This document shows positions 1 through 57,665 of a stretch of 64,000 nucleotides of DNA, piece by piece. Origin of the DNA: Verrucomicrobiota bacterium. GTDB lineage: Bacteria > Verrucomicrobiota > Verrucomicrobiia > Limisphaerales > J093. Position 1 is the stretch's first letter. The number at the start of each line of letters is the position of its first letter. The position numbers and the translations under genes were made by a program. The stretch lies in NCBI GenBank assembly GCA_022710935.1, contig JAKLFY010000001.1:62001-126000 (forward strand), in the 5' to 3' direction. The notes under the pieces were generated by a model. That model searched no databases and was not told where the DNA came from. It was given only the letters and a program-made list of their open reading frames with translations.

Positions 1-3000
1 GCCAGGTCAGCTACGTTCCCGCCGCGGCGACGAACCTGATGGCGATCGCGGCCACCTTCGACCGATGTCTGGCGCTGCGCCGCGACGGGCGCGTGTTCGA
101 ATGGTTCGCCGACGCGGATCTCGAAGTTCCGCCCCAGGCCACGAACGTTGTGGCCATCTCGGGCGGCGCGTCTCACTGGCTGGCCTTGCGCCAGGACGGA
201 AAGGTGGTGGCATGGGGACTGAGTCCCGAGCCGGAGACGATTGTGCCGGCGAGCCTGGCGGATGTCACCGCCATCGCGGCTGGGGGCAATCATAGCGTCG
301 CGTTGCTCGGATCCACGGCGCCTTCGGTCTTTGTGGCGCCGCCCGGCGCGACGGTGCTGGCCGGGGATTCGCTTTTGTTCCGGGGTGAGCCGCGCGGATT
401 GCGTCCGGTCAGCCGGCAATGGTTTCTCGATGGGTCGGCTGTGGCAGGGGCGACCGACAGCACGCTCTTTCTCGACAATGTCCAGGCCGTGCATGCCGGA
501 GGCTACACCCTGGCGATGACGCGGGCGACCGGGACGGTGACAAGCGACTTGCTGAGGCTCGATGTGATCGAGTCACCGCCGCGTTTTGCCGGATCGGAGC
601 GCGCGTTCGGCTTACTCAAAGGCCAGGAGCTGCTGCTCGCGCCTGAGGTGCGGGGGACGGAGCCGATGGCGTTTCAGTGGCGCAGAGACGGCATGGTTCT
701 GGAGGGTGAAAACGGGCCGACACTGGCCAGAGCCGCCGTGACGGGGACGGATGCGGGCGTTTACGAGCTTGTGGCGAGCAATCGGGTGGGAGTGACATCG
801 AGCCCGGCCCAGACTGTGTCGATCGTCCACGTCGCGGCCTGGGGGTCGAACACGATGGGACCAACCCAGGTGCCGCACTCGGCCACAAATCTCGTGGCGG
901 TGGCGGCGGGCGTGAACCACAGCCTGGGTCTGCGCGAAGACGGAACGGTCCTGGGCTGGGGCGACTCGACCTTCGGCCAGACAATGCCACCCGATGCCGC
1001 CACCAACGTTGTCGCCATCGCCGCTGGTGACGGCGTGAGCCTTGTGTTGCGGGCCGACGGCGGCCTGATCGCGTGGGGCTCGAACGACCATGGCCAAATG
1101 ACCACGCCCGCCGACGCGACCAATCTGATCGGGATCGCCGCTGGACCCGCCCATTGCCTTGCGGTGCGCCAGGATGGGAAGGTGTTTGCCTGGGGAGCAA
1201 ACTGGGCCGGGGAATGCACGGTCCCGGAGTCGGCAACCAACGTTGTTGCGGTGGCCGCGGGTGGCGGGCACAGTCTGGCATTGCGTGCGGATGGGACCGC
1301 GGTGGCCTGGGGCTCCGGTTCATACGGCATGAACAGCGTACCGGAGGCGGCTACGAACGTGGTGGCCATCGCCGCGGGAGGCGAACACAACCTGGCCCTG
1401 CGCGCCGACGGGACAGTGGTGGGGTGGGGGAGCAACGATGCTGGCGAGTCCGCGCCTCCCGAATGGGCCACGAACCTCGTGTCGATTTCCGCCCACGGCT
1501 GCAGCAGCCTCGGGGTGTGCGCCGACGGCACGATTGTCGAGTGGGGTTGCGGTTTCTCTCCTGAGGCGCCAATTCCCGCCCAAGCCACCAACGCGATCGC
1601 TGTGTCAGCGGGCCGAGGGTTCAATTTGGCGTTGCTTGATCGCGACGTGTTGCAGGTGTCTCAGGCCCCGAGGAACCCGGTGACGGCCGCCGGCGAGACG
1701 CTGATTCTGCGGGGAGCCGCCTTCGGTTATCCCGCACCGAGCTATCGTTGGCTGCGGAACGGTGTGCCGGTTGCAGGCGCGACCAATGCCTGGCTCGTCT
1801 TGTTGAATGTGCAGGCCGACGCGGCCGCGGAATACTCGGTCGAGATACGGAGCGGCGGTCGAGTGGCGAGGAGTCTGGCGGCGCCGCTTGTTGTTGTTCC
1901 GGCCGCACCCACGATCACGATGAATCCGGTGAGCCAATTGGCGCTTCTGGGCACCGAGGCGGTCTTCTTTGGGGGCGCGAAGGGGACCGAGCCGATCGCG
2001 TTCGAGTGGCAGTTCAACGGGCAGTCTCTGCCTGGGGCAAACGAGTCGGTCCTGTGGCTGTCGTCGGTCGGACATGCACAGAGCGGTGAGTACCGCGCGG
2101 TGGCCGCCAACGCCCTGGGCCGTGCGACCAGCCACGTGGCGACCTTGACGGTCTTCGAGGCGCTGGCGTGGGGCAGTCCCTGGCAGGGCCAGACCGATGT
2201 GCCGTTGGACGCGACCAATCTGGTCGAATTGGCCGCCGGCACGGCGCACACGTTGGCCTTGCGCGAGGACGGCACAGTGGTGGCCTGGGGCGATAACGCG
2301 TCCGGCCAATGCACCGTGCCGCCGGCGGCAACGAATGTCATGCACGTCGCGGCGCGCGGCGAACGCAGTCTGGCGCTGCGTCGGGACGGCGCGGTGGTGA
2401 CCTGGGGTGCCACGGGATATGATCTGGAAACGGTGCCTGCATCCGCGACAAACGTCATTGGCATCGGGGCGGGCACGTCGCACAGCCTGGCCGTGCGCCG
2501 GGACGGTTCCGTGGTGGCTTGGGGGAACAATGCAGCCGGGCAAGCAACGGTCCCGGCGACTGCGGCGAACGTGGTCGCCGTAGCCGGCGGCGTCAACCAC
2601 AGCCTGGCCCTGCGCGCCGACGGCACACTGGTCGGGTGGGGGACCGGTGTCTACGGTTTGACGAATCCGCCCGCGTCCGCGACCGGGATTGTGGCGATCG
2701 CGTGCGGCTCGCTGCACAACCTGGGGTTGCGGGGCGATGGCACGGTGGTCGCCTGGGGGATGACCAACCAGGGCCAGTGCAATGTGCCGATCGAGGCCAC
2801 GAACCTGCTGGCGATCGCGGCGCAACAGACCACCAGCATGGCCCTGCGCCGGGACGGCCGGGTGTTCGTTTGGGGTTCTGTCGCGAATGGCATGGATCAA
2901 GTGCCAGCCAACGCAACGAACGTGGCTGCTATTGCGCTTGGCGCGATGCATTGTGTGGCGTCGATCGACCGGGGCGCGGCGGTGGTCTACGCTCCGCCGC

Positions 3001-6000
3001 TCGATCACAGGGCGCTGGTCGGGGAGAAGCTCATCCTGCTGGCGGATGCCTGCGGGGCGAATCCGCACGCCGCCCGGTGGTATTGGAACGGGCAGTCGGT
3101 GGCCGGCGCCACAAACCGGTGGCTGGTCCTCCCAGACGTGCAGGAATCGGCGACCGGCTCTTACACAGTGGCCTTCGCCCGCGGCGAGAATTGGATCAGC
3201 AGCGCCGCTGCACAGGTGACGGTGGTGCCGTCGATGCCGGTGATCCTAACCCAGCCTTCGAGCCAAACAAACTGGGTGGGAGCGCAGATCGCACTCGAAG
3301 TCCAGCGCTTGGGGTCTGAGCCCATGGACTACGCGTGGTTCCGCGATGGGGCGCGCATCGAGGGGGCGGCGGGGCGCCGGCTCGATTTCCCTGACCTGGC
3401 ATTTGCGGACTCGGGTTTGTACCATCTGGTTCTTTCGAACGCGTTGGGGTCTGTGACCAGCAATCCGGTCCGATTGGGCGTGCAGCAAATGGCCGCCTGG
3501 GGATCCAATTCATCGAGCCAGACCAACGTGCACAGCGGCGCCACGAATGTGGTGGCGCTGGCGGCGGGAGACCGCCACACACTCGCGCTCCGATTGGATG
3601 GGAGCGTGGTGGCGTGGGGCGCCTCAAACTCAGGGCTGACCAATGTCCCTTCGACGGCCACCAACGCCGTCGCCATAGCAGCAGGGACATCCCACAACCT
3701 GGTGGCGCGCGCCGACGGTTCGGTGGTGGCCTGGGGGAGTTCGCTTTACGGAAAGACGACCGTGCCGGTTCAGGCGACGGGCGTCGTGGCCGTTGCGGCC
3801 GGAGGCAACCACAGTCTGGCGCTGCGGCGCGATGGCCGGTTGGTGGCGTGGGGAAACACGAACAACAGCCTGCTGAATGTGCCGCCGCGCGCGGTCAACG
3901 TCGTCCGAATCGCAGCGCCTGCGTTCCTGGGCAACTACTCGCTGGCGTTGCGTCGAGACGGGCGCGTATTCGGATGGGGCGAGAATGCCAACGGCTTGAC
4001 GAATCCGCCGGCGGCGATCTCGAACGTCGTCGGGATCAGCGCTGGTCCGGTTCACGCCCTGGCGATCCGCGGCGATGGTCGTGTTGTCGGCTGGGGCTCG
4101 ACGACGGGCGGCGGTCTCAACATACCCGAATCAGCGACAAATATCGTGGCTGTGGTGGCGGGCGCCAACTCGACGGGGCTTGGCTTTTCGTTGGCCCTGC
4201 GCAACGACGGCGCGATCCTCGGCTGGGGTGCGACCAGCCAGGTGCAGTTGGCCCAGATCCCAGCCAACCTCTCGAGCGCCTTCGCCCTGGCCGCTGGTTC
4301 GAGCCACGCGGTGGCGGCGACCGCGTCACGCGCCCCGCGATTCGTCGACCGATTAGGCGATCTGGTGGCCTATGAAGGACGCGCCTTCGCGTTGAACGCG
4401 CTGGTGATAGGAGCGCTGCCGCTGACGTACCAATGGCGTTTCAATGGAACCGAGCTGGCTGGCGCCACCCAGCCAACCTTGCGGTTGACCAATGTGACGA
4501 GCGCCAACGCAGGGCTGTATTCGGTCGTCGTCAGCAACCGGTTGGGTGTGCTCGAAGGCGAAGTGGCGCAGTTGGCGGTCGAGCCGGTGCCCTTTGCGCC
4601 GGCGATTGTCAAATCGCCTGCCAGCCAGGCGGTGTGGGCGGGAACGAACGTCACGTTGAGTGTCGAGGTGACCGCCTCGCCGGCCCCAACTTTCCAGTGG
4701 CAGCGCAACGGTCAGGACATTTCAGGCGCGACCGGCTCCGCCTACACGATCCCCTACGCAGTGCCCGGCCACGCCGGGACGTATCGCGTGGTGGTGTCGA
4801 ATCTGGAAGGCACAGCCACGAGCGCAGACGCCCTGCTCACCGTCGACATTCCGCCCTGGCCGACGCTCGGATCGCTCGAATCGAATCGGACGGTTTCCGT
4901 CGGATCGCCGCTATTGCTTACGGTGACGGCGAACGGGACGGCGCCGATTCACTATCAATGGCGGCGCAACGGGACGGACCTGCCCGGGGTGACGGGTCCG
5001 AGCCTTTCGTTAGCGGCGTTCGAGTTCGAGGACGGGGGTGTCTACAGCGTCGTCATGAGCAACGCGTCTGGCGTGGCGGAGAGCCCGGGCGCATGGCTCG
5101 CGCCTTGCCCGGTGGCGGTGTGGGGCACGGGGCTGGTGACGAACCTGCCGAGCGCGCTCAGCAATGCGGTGGCGATTGCCGCGGGGAAAGCGCACGCATT
5201 GGCGCTGAAGGCCGATGGCACCGTGGTGGCCTGGGGCGAGGTCCGTCGCGGTGACGCCGACTCCGGCCAGGTGACCGTTCCGGCTGGCCTGAAGGATGTC
5301 GTGGCGATCGCCGCCGGGGAAAATCACAACCTGGCACTCAAGCGGGATGGCGCCGTGGTCGGCTGGGGATTGGACGTTTCCGGGCAGGCCACTGTGCCGG
5401 CGGAGGCGACAAACGTGATCGCCATTGCCGCCGGTTCGGAGCACAGCCTGGCGCTGCGCGCAGATGGATCGGTGGTCGCGTGGGGGACCAGCGTATATGG
5501 ACTGAACACCGTGCCGGCGGCGGCGGTCAACGTGACGGCGATCAGCGCGGGGAATTCTCACAGTCTGGCGTTGCGCGCGGACGGCGTGCCGGTGGCGTGG
5601 GGGACCCCTTACACAGGTGTCACGACTGTCCCATCGAGGGCCACCAACCTGGTGGCCATCGCTGCAAGGGACTACTACTGTCTGGGGATTCGCGCGGATG
5701 GCACCCGGGTCCAGTGGGGTCTGGCCCCCTCCTGGTACGTGTTTTCAGGCCGGGCAACAATAATGTCCCCACCCGCCGTCGACGATGACTACTGCGGGGT
5801 GGCCGCCGGTTGGAACCACTCGGTCTATCTCGATTCCAACGGCGGTCTTACGGTGTTTTCCGAATCGTCCAGTCTCACGGCACCCGCCTGGGAGATCAGT
5901 CCCCCCTGGTTTCACGATGGCATTGCCGTGGCGGCGGGCGCCGAGTTCAGCCTGGGCCTGATCCGTTCTGCCGGGGCACTGCCATCTCCGCAGATCACGA

Positions 6001-9000
6001 CACGCCGCGCTTACGAAGGGGGAACCGCCGTGTTCGCCGCGTTCGGCCCAGGACAGCAGGTCACGGGATGCCAGTGGGAGTTCGAAGGGGCGGATCAGTT
6101 GGGGGCCACTCGCCCGTTCCTGGTGTTGTCCAACGCGACTGGCGCAGCGACGGGCGCCTACACAGTTCGCTTGTCCGAGATCGGGGGCGGCATTCGGAGC
6201 GATGCGATGCGGCTCGATGTGGTGCCGCCGCCGCTGCCTCAGATCGTGCGGCAACCGGTGGCGCAGACAGTGGGGGCGGGGGGAGATGCATTGTTCAGCG
6301 TGACAACCGCCACCGGCGTGCCGGTGTCTTTCGCCTGGCAATTCAACGGGACAGACATGCGGGGAGAGACGCGCCCGGTTCTCTACCTGGCGGCAGTGCA
6401 GGACGCAAATGCAGGTGTGTACCGGGTGATGGTGCGAAATGCCGCCGGCACGGTGGTCAGCGACGGGGCGGCGCTCACAGTGACGGCGACCCCGCCGGCG
6501 ATTGTGACGCAGCCGGTCGATGTCGGTGCGATGCGCGGGGAGACGGTCTTGCTCTCGGTGATCGCTCGAGGTTCGGAGCCGATGGCCTATCAATGGGAAT
6601 TCAATGAAGTCCGGAAGGAAGGCGCGGACGCATCCACCCTGGTGCTGCCTGCGGTGCAACCCTCCGATGTGGGCGGGTACCGCGCGATCGTCACCAACTT
6701 GTACGGGGCGGCGACCAGCGCGGTGGCGCGCGTCCATCTGCCGCCGTTGTCGGTCTGGGGTGACCGTGCGTCCTATGTCGGCAGTCCGCCACTGAGCGCC
6801 TCGAACCTCATCGCGCTATCGGTGGGGGGCAGCCATGTGATCGGTCTGCGCGAAGACGGCACCGCAGTGGGCTGGGGTATGAACGATTGCGCGCAGGCGG
6901 CCGTGCCGGAGGGCTTGAGCAACGTCGTGCAGGTGTCGGCGGGAGAGTGGCACAGTTTGGCGTTGCGCAGCGATGGCACGGTCGCAGGTTGGGGTTCGGC
7001 TTCCTACGGCGGTTCCGTCCCCGAGGCCGGTCTCTCGAACATCGTCCAGGTCTCCGCCGGGGCGATGTTCAGTCTCGCCCTCGATGCCGAAGGCAACGTT
7101 TACTCGTGGGACAAACCGGAGAGTTTCCAGATCGAGCCGGTGGCTGATGCGGTGGCCATTGCCGCGGGCGGGGTGCACTGCGTGGCCCTGCTGCGGGACG
7201 GTTCCGTGACAGCATGGGGGATCAATCCGCTTGGGCAAACCTCGGTGCCGCCCGAGGCGACCAATGCGGTGGCGGTCACGGCCGGACGTGGATTCAGTGC
7301 GGCGTTGCGAGCCGATGGCCATGTGGTGGCCTGGGGCACCTTCGAAGAGTCGCCGTTGATGGTCCTCGACCTGCGCTGCTACGGCCCCAACACCAGTTGG
7401 AGTGGCACGGCGGGTGAACGCCGATTGCCTGTTCCAGCCGAGGCGACGAACGTCGTGGCGATCGCCGCGGGCCGCCACCACCTGGTCGCGCTGCGCGCGG
7501 ACGGGGTTGTGATTGCCTGGGGCGAGAACACCGCCGGCCAGACCGAGGTTCCCGGACTCGATGAGGTGATGACCATTGCGGCCGGCGGTGACCTGAGCGC
7601 GGTGCTGCACGGCGCACTGGGAGCGCGGTTTGGGGCGATTCAGCCGGTCAAAATCGTGGGTGAGGACGCGTCTGTCCTGTTGAATTTGGCCCGGGCGGGT
7701 CGTCCGCCGTTTGGACAGCAGTGGCAGCACAACGGCACGGATTTGCCGGGTCAGACAGGTCCATTCCTCTGGCTGCCGGCCGGACGCGTCGTTGCCGGCG
7801 AGTATCGGGCCGAGTTGACGAATGGCTTTGGCGCCGGTTCAGCCGTGGTTTCGCTTGTCGTGAACCAAGCGCCTCCGGTCGTCACGGTCTCGCCCGCGAG
7901 GCAGGTGGTGGCCGAGGGTGGGGAAGCGGCATTCACTGCACGCGCGAGCGGTTCGGCGCCTTTGAACTATCGGTGGCGGCGGGACGGGGCACTACTGGCG
8001 GATGGGGCGGGGATCGGGGGAACGACGACGCCGGTGTTGACGCTACGCAATGTCACCCCGGGCGATTCCGGCGCCTACAGCGTCATCGTCACAAATGCGT
8101 TGGGGAGCGCCACAAGCGCGGACGCCAATCTGGTCGTTGTGCCTGTCCTGCCGTTGGCGGCGGCGCTGGATACGACGAACCTGGTGTGGACTACAGGCGG
8201 CGACGCCGCCTGGGAGTGGGAGACGAGCTGGACACACGACGGCCTGGATGCGGCGGGGAGCGGGCCCTTCGATGTGGCGCGGACCAACTGGATCGAGACC
8301 ACGGTTACGGGACCGGTGGTGATTGGGTTCTGGTGGACGACATCGGGTTGGTACAACGACCGGTTGGGGTTGTGGGTCGATGGCGTCGAGCAGATAGCCA
8401 TCGGGAACGACATCGCCTGGGAATGGCGCACGATGGCCGTCCCGGCCGGCGCCCACACCCTGCGGTGGGTACATGGTTGCCGGCCTTTCTCGCGCACCTC
8501 GATGGCGGCGCTTGATGAGGTCCGTTTCGTCGAGCCCGAGCCGCCGACCGTGGTCACTCAGCCGAACTCGCGCAGTGCAATCGAAGGTGCGACCGCGACG
8601 CTCAGCGGGGCGGGGAGCGGCACATTACCGCTGTTCTACCGTTGGCTGTTCAACGGCGCCAGTCTCCCGAGTGCCACCAATGCCGTGTTGACTCTGACCG
8701 GCGTGGGACCGGACCAAGTGGGGGACTACAGGCTGGTCATTGGCAACCTGGCCGGCTACGCGACCAGCCAGGTGGCCACGCTCACCCTGACTCCGTCCGC
8801 GCCTTTGGTTGCCGCCGCGCCTCAATCGGTGGTCACCGCACCGGGGTTGACGGCGGTTCTCAAAGCGGACGTGCGTGGGACCACGCCGATGGACATGCAA
8901 TGGCAGTTCAACCGCGCGGATCTGGCCGGGGCGCGGCAGGCGGCTCTCGAAATCCCGGATGTTGGGGTGGCTGACGTGGGATGGTACCGGATCGTGGCGC

Positions 9001-10376
9001 GCAACGGACTGGGAACCGCGTTCAGCGCCGAGGCCGCGCTCGCGCTGGTGCCGGTCGCGGCGTGGGGGCTGAACACATACGGTCAAACCTCAGTGCCGGT
9101 CGACGTCGGCGAAGTCGTCGAGGTCGATGCGAGTTACAGCGGCAGCCTGGCTCGGCGCAGCGACGGTTCGCTGCGGTTCTGGGGGCTGCTCCACACCTAT
9201 CCGCCCTGGCCGATGGATGAGAGCGAGGCGGTCGGGCCGTTCGTGGCGGCATCGGCGGGCTATGACCATTTCGTGGCGCTGCGCGCGGATGGAAAGGTGG
9301 TTGTCTGGAGCCTGGTTCAACTGGAACTGGCGAACGTGCCGTTGGACTTGGGATACGTGGTGGCGGTCGACGCCGGCCGACATCACAACGTGGTCTTGCA
9401 GTCGGACGGCAACGCGGTGGCCTGGGGGCGAAATGACGAAGGTCAATGCGCTGTGCCCTCTGCAGCCAGCAACCTGGTCGCTGTCGCTGGCGGCCGGGCG
9501 CATAGCGTGGCGCTGCGCGCCGACGGCCATGTCCTGGCCTGGGGCGGGAACGATCACGGCCAGACCGACGTCCCCTCCGATCTCACCGATGTCATTGGTA
9601 TCGACGCAGGCGCGGACTATAGCCTGGCGCTGCGGGCGGACGGCACGGTTGCGGCGTGGGGCGATATCGTTTCGCCGCCGTCAGATCTGGATGATGTGGT
9701 GGCCATTGCCGCCGGCGCCGATTTCGCACTCGCCTTGCGCGCGGATGGCACGGTGGTCCGATGGGGAGGAGATGCCGACGTGTTGGAGGTGCCGAGCGGA
9801 CTGTCCCATGTGGTGTCCTTGGCGGGTGGCTGGTGGCACGCGCTTGCCCTTGTGGGTGACGGGCGGCCGGTCATCACGGTGCAGCCGTTTCACCTCGCGG
9901 CTCCGCGGGATGGCAGTCTGACGTTGCACACGCGCGCTGTTGGTTCAGGCCCGCTGCAGTACCAGTGGCAGCGCGATGGGGTCAATGTCCCGGGGGCGAC
10001 CGGGCCGACGTTGACGCGCATTGGTGAGGATGCCGACCTGGCGGGCACTTACACCGTTCGGGTCGCCAATACCCTCGGCGCGACAGAGTCCACGCCCTGC
10101 CAGGTCGGTCCGTCGCCGGGGCCGTGGTTCGACACCGCGCCCGGGGCGATTCGGCTCGACGCGGACGGCTTGCACCTGGTGTTGCGTGGCTTGTCTGGAA
10201 GCGGGACCGTGCGTGTGTGGGCGACGAGCGATCTGCAGGCGTGGGAATTGGTCCTCACGCACGCGCCGGTGATGGGCGCTCTCGATCTGGTCGATCCGAG
10301 CGCGCTCGAATGGCCGGTGCGGTTCTATCGCGCCATCGAGGCCAGGGAATCGGTCACACGCAACCCGCAGCCGTGA
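1..10376 (+). CDS. Giant RCC1-propeller / Ig-like repeat protein, 5' end outside window
   Basis: The frame is open from base 3 and the sequence before the first ATG (39) already matches the RCC1 repeat, so the start lies outside the window; more than 3,450 codons are visible. Six complete blocks of RCC1-type repeats begin near 832, 2162, 3490, 5110, 6748 and 9057, and the end of a seventh lies at the left edge. Each complete block holds seven 'AAG..HSLALR.DG..AWG' units, which fits a seven-bladed propeller. Between blocks lie runs of 1-4 Ig-like domains (about 85 residues, with 'QWxxNGxxLxGAT' and 'Y.V.VSN' cores), about 17 in all. A jelly-roll-like domain is inserted around 8150-8540. The last ~80 residues resemble the terminal domain of verrucomicrobial Ig proteins ('VRFYRA'). 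Probably secreted or surface-attached, with a role in adhesion or binding; no catalytic motif was seen. Confidence 0.9.
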   Translation, partial: QVSYVPAAATNLMAIAATFDRCLALRRDGRVFEWFADADLEVPPQATNVVAISGGASHWLALRQDGKVVAWGLSPEPETIVPASLADVTAIAAGGNHSVALLGSTAPSVFVAPPGATVLAGDSLLFRGEPRGLRPVSRQWFLDGSAVAGATDSTLFLDNVQAVHAGGYTLAMTRATGTVTSDLLRLDVIESPPRFAGSERAFGLLKGQELLLAPEVRGTEPMAFQWRRDGMVLEGENGPTLARAAVTGTDAGVYELVASNRVGVTSSPAQTVSIVHVAAWGSNTMGPTQVPHSATNLVAVAAGVNHSLGLREDGTVLGWGDSTFGQTMPPDAATNVVAIAAGDGVSLVLRADGGLIAWGSNDHGQMTTPADATNLIGIAAGPAHCLAVRQDGKVFAWGANWAGECTVPESATNVVAVAAGGGHSLALRADGTAVAWGSGSYGMNSVPEAATNVVAIAAGGEHNLALRADGTVVGWGSNDAGESAPPEWATNLVSISAHGCSSLGVCADGTIVEWGCGFSPEAPIPAQATNAIAVSAGRGFNLALLDRDVLQVSQAPRNPVTAAGETLILRGAAFGYPAPSYRWLRNGVPVAGATNAWLVLLNVQADAAAEYSVEIRSGGRVARSLAAPLVVVPAAPTITMNPVSQLALLGTEAVFFGGAKGTEPIAFEWQFNGQSLPGANESVLWLSSVGHAQSGEYRAVAANALGRATSHVATLTVFEALAWGSPWQGQTDVPLDATNLVELAAGTAHTLALREDGTVVAWGDNASGQCTVPPAATNVMHVAARGERSLALRRDGAVVTWGATGYDLETVPASATNVIGIGAGTSHSLAVRRDGSVVAWGNNAAGQATVPATAANVVAVAGGVNHSLALRADGTLVGWGTGVYGLTNPPASATGIVAIACGSLHNLGLRGDGTVVAWGMTNQGQCNVPIEATNLLAIAAQQTTSMALRRDGRVFVWGSVANGMDQVPANATNVAAIALGAMHCVASIDRGAAVVYAPPLDHRALVGEKLILLADACGANPHAARWYWNGQSVAGATNRWLVLPDVQESATGSYTVAFARGENWISSAAAQVTVVPSMPVILTQPSSQTNWVGAQIALEVQRLGSEPMDYAWFRDGARIEGAAGRRLDFPDLAFADSGLYHLVLSNALGSVTSNPVRLGVQQMAAWGSNSSSQTNVHSGATNVVALAAGDRHTLALRLDGSVVAWGASNSGLTNVPSTATNAVAIAAGTSHNLVARADGSVVAWGSSLYGKTTVPVQATGVVAVAAGGNHSLALRRDGRLVAWGNTNNSLLNVPPRAVNVVRIAAPAFLGNYSLALRRDGRVFGWGENANGLTNPPAAISNVVGISAGPVHALAIRGDGRVVGWGSTTGGGLNIPESATNIVAVVAGANSTGLGFSLALRNDGAILGWGATSQVQLAQIPANLSSAFALAAGSSHAVAATASRAPRFVDRLGDLVAYEGRAFALNALVIGALPLTYQWRFNGTELAGATQPTLRLTNVTSANAGLYSVVVSNRLGVLEGEVAQLAVEPVPFAPAIVKSPASQAVWAGTNVTLSVEVTASPAPTFQWQRNGQDISGATGSAYTIPYAVPGHAGTYRVVVSNLEGTATSADALLTVDIPPWPTLGSLESNRTVSVGSPLLLTVTANGTAPIHYQWRRNGTDLPGVTGPSLSLAAFEFEDGGVYSVVMSNASGVAESPGAWLAPCPVAVWGTGLVTNLPSALSNAVAIAAGKAHALALKADGTVVAWGEVRRGDADSGQVTVPAGLKDVVAIAAGENHNLALKRDGAVVGWGLDVSGQATVPAEATNVIAIAAGSEHSLALRADGSVVAWGTSVYGLNTVPAAAVNVTAISAGNSHSLALRADGVPVAWGTPYTGVTTVPSRATNLVAIAARDYYCLGIRADGTRVQWGLAPSWYVFSGRATIMSPPAVDDDYCGVAAGWNHSVYLDSNGGLTVFSESSSLTAPAWEISPPWFHDGIAVAAGAEFSLGLIRSAGALPSPQITTRRAYEGGTAVFAAFGPGQQVTGCQWEFEGADQLGATRPFLVLSNATGAATGAYTVRLSEIGGGIRSDAMRLDVVPPPLPQIVRQPVAQTVGAGGDALFSVTTATGVPVSFAWQFNGTDMRGETRPVLYLAAVQDANAGVYRVMVRNAAGTVVSDGAALTVTATPPAIVTQPVDVGAMRGETVLLSVIARGSEPMAYQWEFNEVRKEGADASTLVLPAVQPSDVGGYRAIVTNLYGAATSAVARVHLPPLSVWGDRASYVGSPPLSASNLIALSVGGSHVIGLREDGTAVGWGMNDCAQAAVPEGLSNVVQVSAGEWHSLALRSDGTVAGWGSASYGGSVPEAGLSNIVQVSAGAMFSLALDAEGNVYSWDKPESFQIEPVADAVAIAAGGVHCVALLRDGSVTAWGINPLGQTSVPPEATNAVAVTAGRGFSAALRADGHVVAWGTFEESPLMVLDLRCYGPNTSWSGTAGERRLPVPAEATNVVAIAAGRHHLVALRADGVVIAWGENTAGQTEVPGLDEVMTIAAGGDLSAVLHGALGARFGAIQPVKIVGEDASVLLNLARAGRPPFGQQWQHNGTDLPGQTGPFLWLPAGRVVAGEYRAELTNGFGAGSAVVSLVVNQAPPVVTVSPARQVVAEGGEAAFTARASGSAPLNYRWRRDGALLADGAGIGGTTTPVLTLRNVTPGDSGAYSVIVTNALGSATSADANLVVVPVLPLAAALDTTNLVWTTGGDAAWEWETSWTHDGLDAAGSGPFDVARTNWIETTVTGPVVIGFWWTTSGWYNDRLGLWVDGVEQIAIGNDIAWEWRTMAVPAGAHTLRWVHGCRPFSRTSMAALDEVRFVEPEPPTVVTQPNSRSAIEGATATLSGAGSGTLPLFYRWLFNGASLPSATNAVLTLTGVGPDQVGDYRLVIGNLAGYATSQVATLTLTPSAPLVAAAPQSVVTAPGLTAVLKADVRGTTPMDMQWQFNRADLAGARQAALEIPDVGVADVGWYRIVARNGLGTAFSAEAALALVPVAAWGLNTYGQTSVPVDVGEVVEVDASYSGSLARRSDGSLRFWGLLHTYPPWPMDESEAVGPFVAASAGYDHFVALRADGKVVVWSLVQLELANVPLDLGYVVAVDAGRHHNVVLQSDGNAVAWGRNDEGQCAVPSAASNLVAVAGGRAHSVALRADGHVLAWGGNDHGQTDVPSDLTDVIGIDAGADYSLALRADGTVAAWGDIVSPPSDLDDVVAIAAGADFALALRADGTVVRWGGDADVLEVPSGLSHVVSLAGGWWHALALVGDGRPVITVQPFHLAAPRDGSLTLHTRAVGSGPLQYQWQRDGVNVPGATGPTLTRIGEDADLAGTYTVRVANTLGATESTPCQVGPSPGPWFDTAPGAIRLDADGLHLVLRGLSGSGTVRVWATSDLQAWELVLTHAPVMGALDLVDPSALEWPVRFYRAIEARESVTRNPQP

Positions 10377-53413: not shown

Positions 53414-54220
53414 TCAGCCAGGGGACGGCAGGAGTTGCAGCAGATTGTCGCGGGTGAGGAGATCGGTCTCTTGCGGACGTTCCAGGAACGGGCGGATGTC
53501 GTCTTGGATGACCCGGAAGTCGACGGACTCGAGCCGGGCGCGCACCAGGTTGGCCCAACGGTGCGCGTCGCAGCGTCCGACTCCGCGCGTCTGGTCCAAG
53601 GCGCTCTGTAAGAACGGCAGATTGGGCTCGACCGGGGGCCGCTGCGAGAGATACCAGAGGAGATCGTACCAGTCCCGCCCTTTAGCGTACTTGCGGGTGA
53701 TGACCGCGTGCAGTTTGCCGGCCAGCAGTGAGGGCAAGTCGTGGTACTGCAGCAGAAAGGCCACGTGCCGGGTGACAACCCGCCGCTGGCAGCGCGCCCC
53801 GGCTGGCGGGCGTGTGTCGATCTCCACTTTGACGGCGAGTTTCTGTTGCGGCAGTGCGGACAATCCCGCCTCCCGGAGCAACCCGCTCACACGCACCCAG
53901 CCGACGTGTACCGTTTTGCGATCGTTCCACGTCACTTCGAGATCGAGGCCCGCCAAAGTGAGGTTCCGCTTCACCTTGACCATCCAGTCTTCGCCCGCAT
54001 AGCCGTCGGCGGACACGACGCAGAAATCCAGGTCTTCCGAGAATCTGGGCAAGCCGTAAAGAAAACGCAGCGCCGTCCCCCCCACAAAGGCCAACGGGCG
54101 AAAGGCCTCGCTCTCGTGGAACGATTGGAGCACGAGGACCTGCAGGTACTCGCGCAACCGGTTGAGTGCTTGTCCGGAATCCGCCGTGGCGCGGACAATG
54201 GCCAGCATCTGTTCTCTCAT
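53414..54220 (-). CDS. AbiEii/AbiGii nucleotidyltransferase toxin
   Basis: 268 residues. 'FVGGTALRFLYGLPRFSEDLDF' is the signature nucleotidyltransferase core (GG...S.DLD), and 'LLAGKLHAVITRKYAKGRDWYDLLWYL' type sequence supplies the conserved Lys and (R/K)D-x-YDL motif. In type IV systems of this kind the toxin modifies tRNA acceptor ends or other targets using NTP, blocking growth and phage spread. It overlaps its antitoxin gene by four bases (ATGA). No truncation seen. Confidence 0.92.
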   Translation of the reverse strand: MREQMLAIVRATADSGQALNRLREYLQVLVLQSFHESEAFRPLAFVGGTALRFLYGLPRFSEDLDFCVVSADGYAGEDWMVKVKRNLTLAGLDLEVTWNDRKTVHVGWVRVSGLLREAGLSALPQQKLAVKVEIDTRPPAGARCQRRVVTRHVAFLLQYHDLPSLLAGKLHAVITRKYAKGRDWYDLLWYLSQRPPVEPNLPFLQSALDQTRGVGRCDAHRWANLVRARLESVDFRVIQDDIRPFLERPQETDLLTRDNLLQLLPSPG

Positions 54221-54858
54221 AGCGTCACCGTGCCCTGTTTCGTCTGGCGGGCGAGTTGCAGCCAGCTCGAGACCGCCCGGTCGAGCCGTGGGCTCTGATA
54301 GAGCAGAGCGTAATCGCGCAACTGGCGCGCGCTAATCAACTCGACATTCTGATAGCGCATCTCCCCGAGCCGCTCGGCGGTCCATTCGCCCGCCGTCAGG
54401 TGCCAATGATCCAGCAGGGCTTTCTCCGGCTCGGCGACCAGGATTTCGGTTCCTCCGTGGGCCACCGTGCGGTAACCCAGGAACCACTCCTGCTTGATGT
54501 TCCGGTAATCGAACAGCCCCAACGGATTCTCGAACCGTCGTGGAACCCGCGGAGTCACGCTCGTAAACCAGACCACTCGTTCGGGAATCAGATCGTAGTA
54601 ACCGAGCGCCCACAGGCCGCTGAGGTAGGAGGGGCGATACATCCGGTTCGCCAACGCGGCGGGTGCCAGGGTGGCGCGGCGATACGGCTCGGCGAGCGTG
54701 TACCAACCGCGACGCAGCCCGATGACCCTGCCCTGCTTCATCCAACGGGACATCTGGGTCAGAACGACATCGCGCCGGTCATCGAAAGCCTGGACGATCA
54801 GAGCCAAGTCGAAGCACGGCAACGCCCCCACCAACCCAACCAACGCATCAAAACGCAT
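54217..54858 (-). CDS. AbiEi-type antitoxin / transcriptional autoregulator
   Basis: 213 residues. An N-terminal winged-helix part ('DVVLTQMSRWMKQGRVIGLR') and a C-terminal domain with 'PSYLSGLWALGYYDLIPE', 'FTSVTPRVPRRFENPLG' and 'VAEPEKALLDHWHL' match the AbiEi antitoxin family. These proteins bind operator repeats in their own promoter and counter the AbiEii toxin without a protein complex. First gene of the pair, preceded by a conspicuously AT-rich stretch. Confidence 0.9.
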   Translation of the reverse strand: MRFDALVGLVGALPCFDLALIVQAFDDRRDVVLTQMSRWMKQGRVIGLRRGWYTLAEPYRRATLAPAALANRMYRPSYLSGLWALGYYDLIPERVVWFTSVTPRVPRRFENPLGLFDYRNIKQEWFLGYRTVAHGGTEILVAEPEKALLDHWHLTAGEWTAERLGEMRYQNVELISARQLRDYALLYQSPRLDRAVSSWLQLARQTKQGTVTL

Positions 54859-55085
54859 TACTATTAATTAACATAGATGTTTATTATTGTAAATACATGA
54901 TTGGTGGGTGAGGAGTGCGGAGTGAGGGGTGCGGTCGGACTCGGTGCGCCTTGAACGGAGGCGCATGCGGCATGCCGGAATCTGCGTTGTTGAAGGCGGG
55001 TGCACAGGGCGCCGTTTCCTCCACCGACTGGTTCGCATAGCAATTCGCTTGCGGGGCTTGGGAGCTGCCGCAACAATTCTGGCCG
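54859..55085. promoter_or_regulatory. AT-rich divergent promoter region of the AbiE pair
   Basis: The bases next to the antitoxin start (about 54859-54900) are strongly AT-rich in an otherwise GC-rich window, with TTAATTAA and the imperfect palindrome TGTTTAT-tatt-GTAAATACA (54879-54898). These are candidates for -10/-35 boxes and the AbiEi operator. Nothing specific was recognised in the remaining GC-rich part up to the protease-GH172 gene. Confidence 0.4.
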
Positions 55086-57665
55086 ATGCGAATTCCATAC
55101 GCCTTCCCGTCTGCGATCACACTCGGTCTCCTGGTCGCGTTTGCGCGATCCGGTCAGTCGAGTCCGGGCGTCGAGGGGCCACCCAATCCAGGTCAGGCCG
55201 GAACGAGCGAAGCGATTGACCTTCGGTCCGAGTTCGACAAGCTGGGGTTGGATCGGCGTCGGCAGGGCAAACGCCCCACCTGTTCGGTGTTCACGGTCGC
55301 AGGGGCCCTCGAATTCGCTGTGGCGAAACGCCAGGGCCATTGTCCGCGTCTGAGCGTCGAGTTCCTGAACTGGGCGGCCAACACGGTGTGCGGAGACGCG
55401 GAGGACGGGGCCTTCTTCTCCGATCTGTGGAAAGGCTATGCGGCGCACGGCATCTGTCTCGAGGAGGATATGCCCTACGCCGCGGCGCTCGATCCGGCTC
55501 GCGCGCCGACCGCCGAGGCCATGGCCGATGCCATGACCCGACTCCCGCTGGCTTTGCGCCTCGAGTGGATCAAGGAGTGGGACGTCAAGACCGGCCTCAC
55601 CGAGGCCCACCTCGCCGCCATCAAGCAGACGCTGGCGGCGGGTTGGCCCATCTGCGGCGGCTTCCGCTGGCCCAAACAGGCCCAGTGGGTCGACGGTGTC
55701 CTGCAGATGTGTCCCGCCGACGTTGTCTACGATGGCCATAGCGTGCTGTTGGTGGGCTATCGCAACGATCGCGCTCAGCCCGGAGGCGGCGTCTTCCTGT
55801 TCCGCAACACGGCGAATGACGGGCGCGACGGGGCGATGCCATTCGAGTACGCGGCGGCTTACATGAACGACGCTGCCTGGATCGATTTCGAAAGTCGCTC
55901 GAACAGGCGTGCCGGCCAGAACGGCACTGAACCGGGAGCCAAGGGGGCGCAGAGGGCGGACGGGAACGAGGCGGGCTGCTCGACCGCCGTTTGCTCCACA
56001 GATGCGCTGGGCGCTTTGGCATCGCCGCCGACGGGCCGCAACCGTCGTGTTTCGAGCAACCAGCTCCCGAAATGGAACGACGCGAACCTGGATATGACTC
56101 TGCTGCCTCCGGGCAAGTCGCTCGAAATGCCGCTGCTCGAAGGACCGGGCGTCATCACGCACATCTGGTTCACCAGCCACGCCGGGCGGGTCAACGAACT
56201 CAACGCCCTCTCTCTGCGCATTTACTGGGACGAGCGCCCCGAGCCGGGGGTCGAGACGCCGGTCGGCGAGTTCTTCGCCGTCGGGCAAGGCCGTCCGGCG
56301 TCGGTCGAGAGCGTCCCGGTGCAGGTTTCGCCGACGGGATCGCTGACGTGTTTCTGGCGAATGCCTTTTGCCAAATCGGCCCGAATCGTGGTCTCGAACG
56401 ACAATCCCGATCGGATGGCGGGTCTGTACTGGCAGGTGGACTGGGTCGAGTTGGATGCGCTGCCTGCCGACACGGCTTACTTTCATGCGCGCTACCGCCA
56501 GGAATATCCGGCGGTGGACGGGCGCGATTATCTTCTGGCTGACATCGAGGGACAGGGCCGATACGTCGGCACGGTCATGTCCGTCACGCTGGCACAGGAC
56601 GGTTGGTGGGGCGAGGGCGATGACTTCTTCTACATCGATGGCGAGACGGTGCCGAGTCTTCAGGGCACGGGCAGCGAGGATTACTTCAACGACGCCTGGG
56701 GGTTCCGTCCGCGGACCGGTCCGTGGTTCGGCCAGCCGCGATGGCAGGGCGACAATGCCGGGGACAGCGGCGTCTGCTATCGCTGGCATGTGCTCGATCC
56801 GGTCGGGTTCCGCCATTCGCTCAAGGTCGCCATCGAGCACAAGGGCAATCGCGTCGACGACACCGAGGGTTTCTACATCGATCGACCGGACTTCATCAGC
56901 AGCGTGGCATTTTGGTATCAGACGGGCGAGCCAAAGCGGTGGGAGAAGCTGCCGCCGTTTGTCGAGCGGCGCATTCCCTGGCAGCACCATCACTTTGTTC
57001 GCGCATTCCGCGAGGCCCAAACGACCGGCGCGGCCAAAGCGCGGGTCGAGACCACGGGGATGTTCGGCGCTCGTCCGGTGCTGGGCTGGCCCAACACCGA
57101 AGCCGGCGCGCGGCTGACGCTGCCATTCGTTGTCGCCGAGGGCGGGCGTTACGCCGTGCGGTTGACGGCGTCAGCCGCCCCCGGGCAAGGCTTCTACGCC
57201 ATCGAGTTGGACGGGCTCAATGCGCTCGATCGGGCTGATTTCCGCGCGCCCGAATCCGAGGAACTCGATCTATCACTGGGCACACATGAGCTGGCCCCCG
57301 GTCCGCACACGGTCGCGTTTCGCGCCCTCGCGGACGAGCGAGGACAGGCCGGGCCGCTGGCGGTCGAGATGCTGCGGTTGCTGCGTCTGCCGCCAGAGGC
57401 CACGCGCGCGATCAAGACCCATCACGAGGCGCATTTCATCCGGCTGGGCATTGGCCGGGCGGTCTATGCGCATCGACTCGCTTACGGAGATGTGCCCGAG
57501 TCGCTCGAAAGACTCGTCCAGACAGGCCTGATGGACCCGCGGTATCTTAAGGATGAGAATCAGCAGCCGCTGCGCTCGCGGCGCGAAGGCGACTCGATCG
57601 TCGTCGAAAGCACCGGGCCGGGCCGGTGGACCCATCGCTGGCAAGGCCTCGATGCGCGGCGCTGA
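55086..57665 (+). CDS. Papain-like cysteine protease fused to GH172 (DUF2961) glycosidase
   Basis: 859 residues with an N-terminal export segment. Residues 45-270 are papain-like (C1): Q60 and C66 in 'QGKRPTCSVFTVAGALEF' are six apart, as in papain; H218 lies in 'YDGHSVLLVGYRND' and N241 in 'FLFRNTAND'. A ~55-residue low-complexity linker follows. From about 320 the DUF2961/GH172 domain starts ('LLEGPGVITHIW'). E510 in 'WWGEGDD' and E531 in 'GTGSEDYFNDAWGF' are 21 residues apart, the spacing I recall for the catalytic pair of the GH172 fructanase. A beta domain follows and the end is uncharacterised. Single open frame; no frameshift at the junction. Confidence 0.87.
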   Translation: MRIPYAFPSAITLGLLVAFARSGQSSPGVEGPPNPGQAGTSEAIDLRSEFDKLGLDRRRQGKRPTCSVFTVAGALEFAVAKRQGHCPRLSVEFLNWAANTVCGDAEDGAFFSDLWKGYAAHGICLEEDMPYAAALDPARAPTAEAMADAMTRLPLALRLEWIKEWDVKTGLTEAHLAAIKQTLAAGWPICGGFRWPKQAQWVDGVLQMCPADVVYDGHSVLLVGYRNDRAQPGGGVFLFRNTANDGRDGAMPFEYAAAYMNDAAWIDFESRSNRRAGQNGTEPGAKGAQRADGNEAGCSTAVCSTDALGALASPPTGRNRRVSSNQLPKWNDANLDMTLLPPGKSLEMPLLEGPGVITHIWFTSHAGRVNELNALSLRIYWDERPEPGVETPVGEFFAVGQGRPASVESVPVQVSPTGSLTCFWRMPFAKSARIVVSNDNPDRMAGLYWQVDWVELDALPADTAYFHARYRQEYPAVDGRDYLLADIEGQGRYVGTVMSVTLAQDGWWGEGDDFFYIDGETVPSLQGTGSEDYFNDAWGFRPRTGPWFGQPRWQGDNAGDSGVCYRWHVLDPVGFRHSLKVAIEHKGNRVDDTEGFYIDRPDFISSVAFWYQTGEPKRWEKLPPFVERRIPWQHHHFVRAFREAQTTGAAKARVETTGMFGARPVLGWPNTEAGARLTLPFVVAEGGRYAVRLTASAAPGQGFYAIELDGLNALDRADFRAPESEELDLSLGTHELAPGPHTVAFRALADERGQAGPLAVEMLRLLRLPPEATRAIKTHHEAHFIRLGIGRAVYAHRLAYGDVPESLERLVQTGLMDPRYLKDENQQPLRSRREGDSIVVESTGPGRWTHRWQGLDARR

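Follow-up and report, generated by a model that had tools for sequence, protein, structure and literature searches.

Within the glycoside hydrolase family GH172 (DUF2961), catalysis has been assigned to two glutamates in alphaFFase1, in which Glu270 serves as acid/base and Glu291 as nucleophile (PMC8605356). GH172 enzymes were also found to cleave D-arabinofuranose (D-Araf) oligosaccharides from digested pili (PMC10115798), and bifidobacterial GH127 enzymes act on the arabinosides of hydroxyproline-rich glycoproteins (PMC7263609). That a GH172 domain can share a chain with a protease was recorded by Krupovic et al. in 2022, who listed a cysteine peptidase (PF00112) among the domain combinations of DUF2961 (PMC8812541). 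We found no paper in the open-access literature that analyses this C1-GH172 architecture, and a search of the same literature for protease-glycoside hydrolase fusions in Planctomycetes or Verrucomicrobia returned nothing. The gene described here is located in a stretch of 64,000 nucleotides from a Verrucomicrobiota bacterium, referred to below as the window. An initial annotation of this DNA had considered protease-GH172 fusions to be undescribed, which the listing by Krupovic et al. contradicts.

The gene occupies positions 55086-57665 of the forward strand as part of an open frame of 874 codons (55041-57662), from which an ATG at 55086 gives a protein of 859 amino acids that terminates at the stop codon 57663-57665. 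This single frame encodes, in order, a C1 peptidase, a GH172 domain, a carbohydrate-binding module (CBM)-like domain and a tail. Queried with the C1 alignment, the GTDB species genomes yielded 77 loci, distributed over Verrucomicrobiota, Planctomycetota, Lentisphaerota, Armatimonadota, Poribacteria and Bacteroidota, 36 of which carry C1 and GH172 in frame without an intervening stop (37 with the window). The fusion is thus shared by dozens of bacteria from soil and water. The fused loci belong to Verrucomicrobiota, Planctomycetota and Lentisphaerota, besides unassigned metagenome-assembled genomes (MAGs) and one MAG labelled Omnitrophota, and the cultured Aquisphaera insulae JC669 is among the carriers (L097). 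Full-length relatives share 64-76% identity with the window protein and contain no stops, and the uninterrupted fusion was also seen in several further genomes of the order to which the window genome belongs, where the C1 profile is matched by 33 of 320 genomes, 23 of them strongly. The proposal that one open reading frame joins both domains in a real fusion is thus borne out, including its recurrence in related genomes, and a chimeric assembly, a missed stop or a chance read-through are ruled out by the 36 further loci. It is confirmed that the gene encodes one protein joining a papain-type protease to a GH172 enzyme. A search against NCBIfam gave no match.

The papain-like C1 domain spans residues 45-268 (55218..55889). 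Its catalytic set was found where the initial annotation had placed it, with the oxyanion-hole glutamine Gln60 (55263..55265) six positions ahead of the nucleophile Cys66 (55281..55283), followed by His218 (55737..55739) and Asn241 (55806..55808). Gln60 and Cys66 are invariant in all 78 C1 domains and His218 is present in 77, with one gap; the position of Asn241 is occupied by asparagine in all 37 fused proteins and by aspartate in 17 of the 78 domains, exclusively in non-fused relatives. Together with both GH172 glutamates, the complete Q/C/H/N set is kept in 37 of 37 fused proteins. Family assignment was less straightforward: a Pfam search confirmed the second half of the fusion (DUF2961, E=1.4e-74), whereas Peptidase_C1 (PF00112) scored only 16.1 bits (E=0.012) where the cut-off is 20.7, and the C1 region by itself remained marginally below this value (E=5.6e-4, 20.5 bits). 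Taken alone, the window sequence thus comes close to lacking a C1 match, and the assignment needed its relatives. Matches to PF00112 were obtained at E<=0.01 for 51 of 60 relatives, the strongest with 2.5e-15, and the failure of PF00112 to match at threshold in a search of the window's own genome reflects the divergence of the family rather than absence of the domain. A profile built from ten relatives, aligned across the C1 domain and all retaining Q, C, H and N, identified xylellain (3ois, 5.8e-6) and cathepsin L (9.3e-6) in the PDB, the former as the best match. In an AlphaFold2 model computed from 35 aligned sequences (mean pLDDT 81, with most of the C1 part above 85), the N-terminal domain superposes on xylellain with Z 22.7 and an rmsd of 2.6 across 218 residues, and on cathepsins and plant papain-like enzymes with Z ~21. 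Judged from the Q-C-H-N set and the predicted papain fold, the C1 domain is genuine. An I29 inhibitor propeptide is common, though not universal, in C1 peptidases. The window protein gave no Pfam match to I29, and the 44 residues upstream of the C1 domain, about 25 of them signal-like, leave no room for one.

The GH172 domain (residues 316-640, 56031..57005) is recognized far more readily, with 251 bits against a DUF2961 (PF11175) cut-off of 27 for residues 374-612, and with alphaFFase1 (7v1v, E 2.9e-53) as the first PDB match, followed by 4kq7, 8ah3 and 8ic8. Its model, a double jelly-roll, aligns to 7v1v with Z 33.5 over 307 residues (rmsd 2.5), so that structure prediction agrees with the annotation for both halves of the protein. 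By alignment, Glu510 (56613..56615) and Glu531 (56676..56678), 21 residues apart as originally noted, are the equivalents of the acid/base Glu270 and the nucleophile Glu291 of alphaFFase1, and both are invariant in the 37 fused proteins. In a 35-row alignment, the -1 subsite residues Trp507, Asp532 and Trp538, the calcium-site positions Asn334, Asp336 and Asp512, and Tyr448, which is contributed by the neighbouring protomer, are invariant or nearly so. Retention of inter-protomer active-site residues suggests that the fusion still multimerizes. By sequence and predicted structure alike, the GH172 domain is genuine.

Two further parts of the chain go beyond the initial description. Residues 641-770 (57006..57395) form a CBM6/CBM35-type beta-sandwich in the AlphaFold2 model (pLDDT 93 for residues 641-859), which matches the fold of MiXBM (7ehg, Z 15.4), a xanthan lyase (6f2p, Z 14.4) and CBM35 structures (Z ~11), with a Pfam CBM_35 hit that stays under cut-off (E 0.2). 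It is followed by a helix-plus-sheet tail (residues 771-859, 57396..57662) that ends in GLDARR. In 34 aligned proteins, fused and unfused, the pattern HEAHFIRLGIGRA...WxGLD(A/P)RR or a near variant is found at the C-terminus, and the tail is common to fused loci (within L071-L134) and the unfused L115, L123 and L126 of the same GH172 clade. Pfam gave no match for residues 771-859, and outside this family of proteins the tail query returned only three weak matches (E 0.0009-0.003), with stop codons interrupting the translated frame at one locus. By eye alone, the tail looks like a pseudopilin head.

Between the two catalytic domains lies a linker (residues 269-315, 55890..56030) that is predicted to be disordered (pLDDT 34-39 over most of its length) and, in line with its earlier description as low-complexity, is unconserved: in relatives it measures 20-54 amino acids and shares 17-44% identity with that of the window. 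Strings such as MSVFEDALGALTQPPTGRNRR open the free GH172 proteins and recur at the C-terminal end of the fused linker, in the window as DALGALASPPTGRNRR, so that the fusion junction is still readable. Pairwise comparison of the window protein with ten fused relatives gave dN/dS values of mostly ~0.1-0.2 in the C1 domain (maximum 0.36), 0.04-0.17 in the GH172 domain and mostly 0.3-0.9 in the linker (full range 0.13-0.95), ratios that are rough since synonymous sites are near saturation. These values support purifying selection on both the C1 and the GH172 domain.

A tree of GH172 domains places all 36 fused copies used, that of the window among them, in one clade (SH-aLRT 89). The closest rows, attached by a branch with weak support (61), come from Armatimonadota and Poribacteria, where the GH172 gene immediately follows a free C1 gene; in L123, the C1 stop overlaps the GH172 start (ATGA), and in L115 the two are 12 bases apart. 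A gene pair is therefore the probable source of the fusion, and a single fusion event from an overlapping pair is the simplest reading. Fused and unfused rows are intermixed in the C1 tree, so that the fusion must afterwards have been lost or split, or have arisen more than once. The window genome contains 12 DUF2961/GH172 loci in 7.5 Mb, one of them fused to C1, a density at which repeated chance adjacency appears unlikely; another genome (G047) contains 20 such loci. The C1 gene has also found other partners. In two Verrucomicrobia (L076 and L084), the gene downstream of a free C1 gene begins after ~50 bases and encodes a GH172 lipoprotein that belongs to another clade. These pairs lie at about 5000-8700, and the C-terminal region of the L084 GH172 protein looks like HEAT repeats. 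In a planctomycete (L117, 1961-5167), a C1 domain with the catalytic set Q, C, H and D, thus with aspartate at the asparagine position, is fused to a complete GH127 including its middle domain. In L137, L141 and L147, distant relatives of the C1 domain have either FGE-sulfatase (SUMF1-like) domains or FG-GAP repeats as fusion partners. For many of the non-fused C1 relatives, the fetched flanks contain no GH172, which suggests that the protease also works without GH172.

Among the flanks compared, there was no conserved gene neighbourhood or carbohydrate cluster around the fusion, and most of the flanking open reading frames that recurred were shadow frames over the fusion gene itself. Its neighbours in the window are an AbiE-type pair and a photolyase gene. 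The former comprises an AbiEii-type nucleotidyltransferase gene (53414-54858, reverse strand) and the partner upstream of it, which is AbiEi-like by position; the two are oriented divergently to the fusion gene and probably constitute a type IV toxin-antitoxin pair. At the other end of the window, an open frame of 3457 codons (3-10373, forward strand) that codes for 20 RCC1 repeats as well as several Ig domains runs off the window start. The window genome also contains GH95 and sulfatase genes. As to localization, a hydrophobic stretch at residues ~1-25 (55086..55160) points to a probable Sec signal peptide. An N-terminal hydrophobic stretch is present in 34 of the 35 fused relatives with an untruncated start and is thus general in the fused proteins, which are probably exported. 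No obvious signal peptide is encoded by the C1 genes of the operon forms L115, L126 and L127, whose site of action may differ.

A plausible function, which we put at about even likelihood, is the breakdown of furanosyl-decorated glycoproteins or glycopeptides by a secreted protein with two enzymes on one chain, for which we infer secretion, multimerization, both activities and the glycoprotein substrate. The GH172 domain, probably multimeric like other GH172 enzymes, is predicted to remove terminal alpha-furanosyl residues of the D-arabinofuranose or D-fructofuranose type, while the CBM-like domain may hold it on the glycan and the papain-like domain, flexibly tethered by the linker, could cut the exposed polypeptide. 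Intact catalytic sets, purifying selection and a recurrent pairing of protease and furanosidase are what a glycoprotein-processing enzyme, the role put forward in the initial annotation, predicts, and this pairing occurs as the fusion, as genes that overlap or adjoin in Armatimonadota and Poribacteria, with the other-clade GH172 lipoprotein in the two Verrucomicrobia, and as the fusion to GH127 in the planctomycete. By analogy, such a role would also fit the action of GH172 enzymes on pili glycans and of GH127 enzymes on hydroxyproline-rich glycoproteins. The model does not explain the unfused pairs of L115, L126 and L127 without a C1 signal peptide, and both the missing carbohydrate gene cluster around the fusion and the many C1 relatives with no GH172 in their flanks speak against it.

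The conserved C-terminus makes self-processing a serious rival, even if a rather improbable one. Here, the protease would cut its own linker or tail and thereby bring about maturation, release or anchoring of the GH172 part, with no external protein substrate. Free C-termini are not usually kept as strictly as the near-invariant GLD(A/P)RR of the 34 aligned proteins, both fused and paired, which might mark a site of processing or sorting, and the C1 domain is not preceded by an I29 propeptide. Such a role fits less well with a linker that varies from 20 to 54 residues and has no conserved cut site, or with the persistence of C1 genes beside other-clade GH172 or with no GH172 nearby, in genomes where the tail query finds no strong match. 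Nor does it need to be assumed that both enzymes share a substrate: a general protease and a glycan exo-hydrolase might merely be co-secreted on one chain and attack separate polymers in detritus. We regard this as unlikely, albeit with some merit, as a single one of the twelve DUF2961 loci in the genome is fused to C1, GH95 and sulfatase genes are present as well, and C1 occurs alone or, in distant relatives, with FGE-sulfatase or FG-GAP partners. Yet one GH172 clade has kept its C1 partner across several phyla, and further links of C1, to a second GH172 clade and to GH127, have arisen in addition.

A further reading concerns the C1 domain itself, which might be a binding or transferase domain instead of a working peptidase. 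This would be compatible with the sub-threshold Pfam score of the window protein and with the serine that follows the catalytic cysteine, where papain has tryptophan. Invariant glutamine and cysteine and nearly invariant histidine throughout the family, an asparagine kept in every fused protein and the fold similarity to xylellain (Z 22.7) render it highly improbable.

Should the preferred reading of a glycoprotein-degrading enzyme be correct, one conserved enzyme would couple deglycosylation to proteolysis. Such coupling would account for the digestion, by widespread environmental bacteria, of glycoproteins resistant to ordinary proteases, point to furanosyl-decorated proteins as a real carbon source, and give a biological context to GH172, a family with few characterized substrates. 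The enzyme might also serve as a tool to strip D-arabinofuranosyl glycoprotein coats. A more far-reaching and distinctly tentative idea is that of an unrecognized enzyme class, in which a protease and a furanosidase of GH172 or GH127, fused or adjacent, act on one and the same protein, the one cleaving it and the other removing its furanosyl glycans. The class would extend over Verrucomicrobiota, Planctomycetota, Lentisphaerota, Armatimonadota and Poribacteria, and its existence would imply a glycoprotein, abundant in the environment and as yet unnamed, whose terminal residues are D-arabinofuranosyl or similar. The fusion is open to experiment, as it is carried by the cultured A. insulae JC669.

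Compared with known systems, the closest solved C1 enzyme by both profile and fold is xylellain from Xylella fastidiosa (PDB 3ois), a stand-alone protease with 22% identity to the window C1 domain in the structural alignment. On the GH172 side, the difructose dianhydride I synthase/hydrolase alphaFFase1 from Bifidobacterium dentium (PDB 7v1v, PMC8605356) has the DUF2961 fold (Z 33.5), both catalytic glutamates, the -1 subsite and the inter-protomer tyrosine in common with the window protein, but it carries no fused protease, has a C-terminal helix in place of the CBM-like domain and tail, and is described as lacking a Sec signal, which the window protein probably possesses. The GH172 exo-alpha-D-arabinofuranosidases 8ah3, from Dysgonomonas gadei, and 8ic8 (PMC10115798) are of the same family and fold (Z ~33) and, unlike the window protein, have no protease domain; some of these enzymes act on the D-Araf oligosaccharides of pilin. 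GH127 beta-L-arabinofuranosidases such as HypBA1 (PMC7263609) belong to a different glycoside hydrolase family, which is nonetheless fused to a C1 relative in L117. The architecture of Krupovic et al. (PMC8812541) comprises the same two Pfam families in one protein, given as a text list item and in a domain-organization figure without analysis of the combination. Beyond that record, the conservation of the fusion, its intact active sites, its single clade with a likely origin from a gene pair, the exchange of GH172 for GH127, the CBM-like domain and the tail are new.
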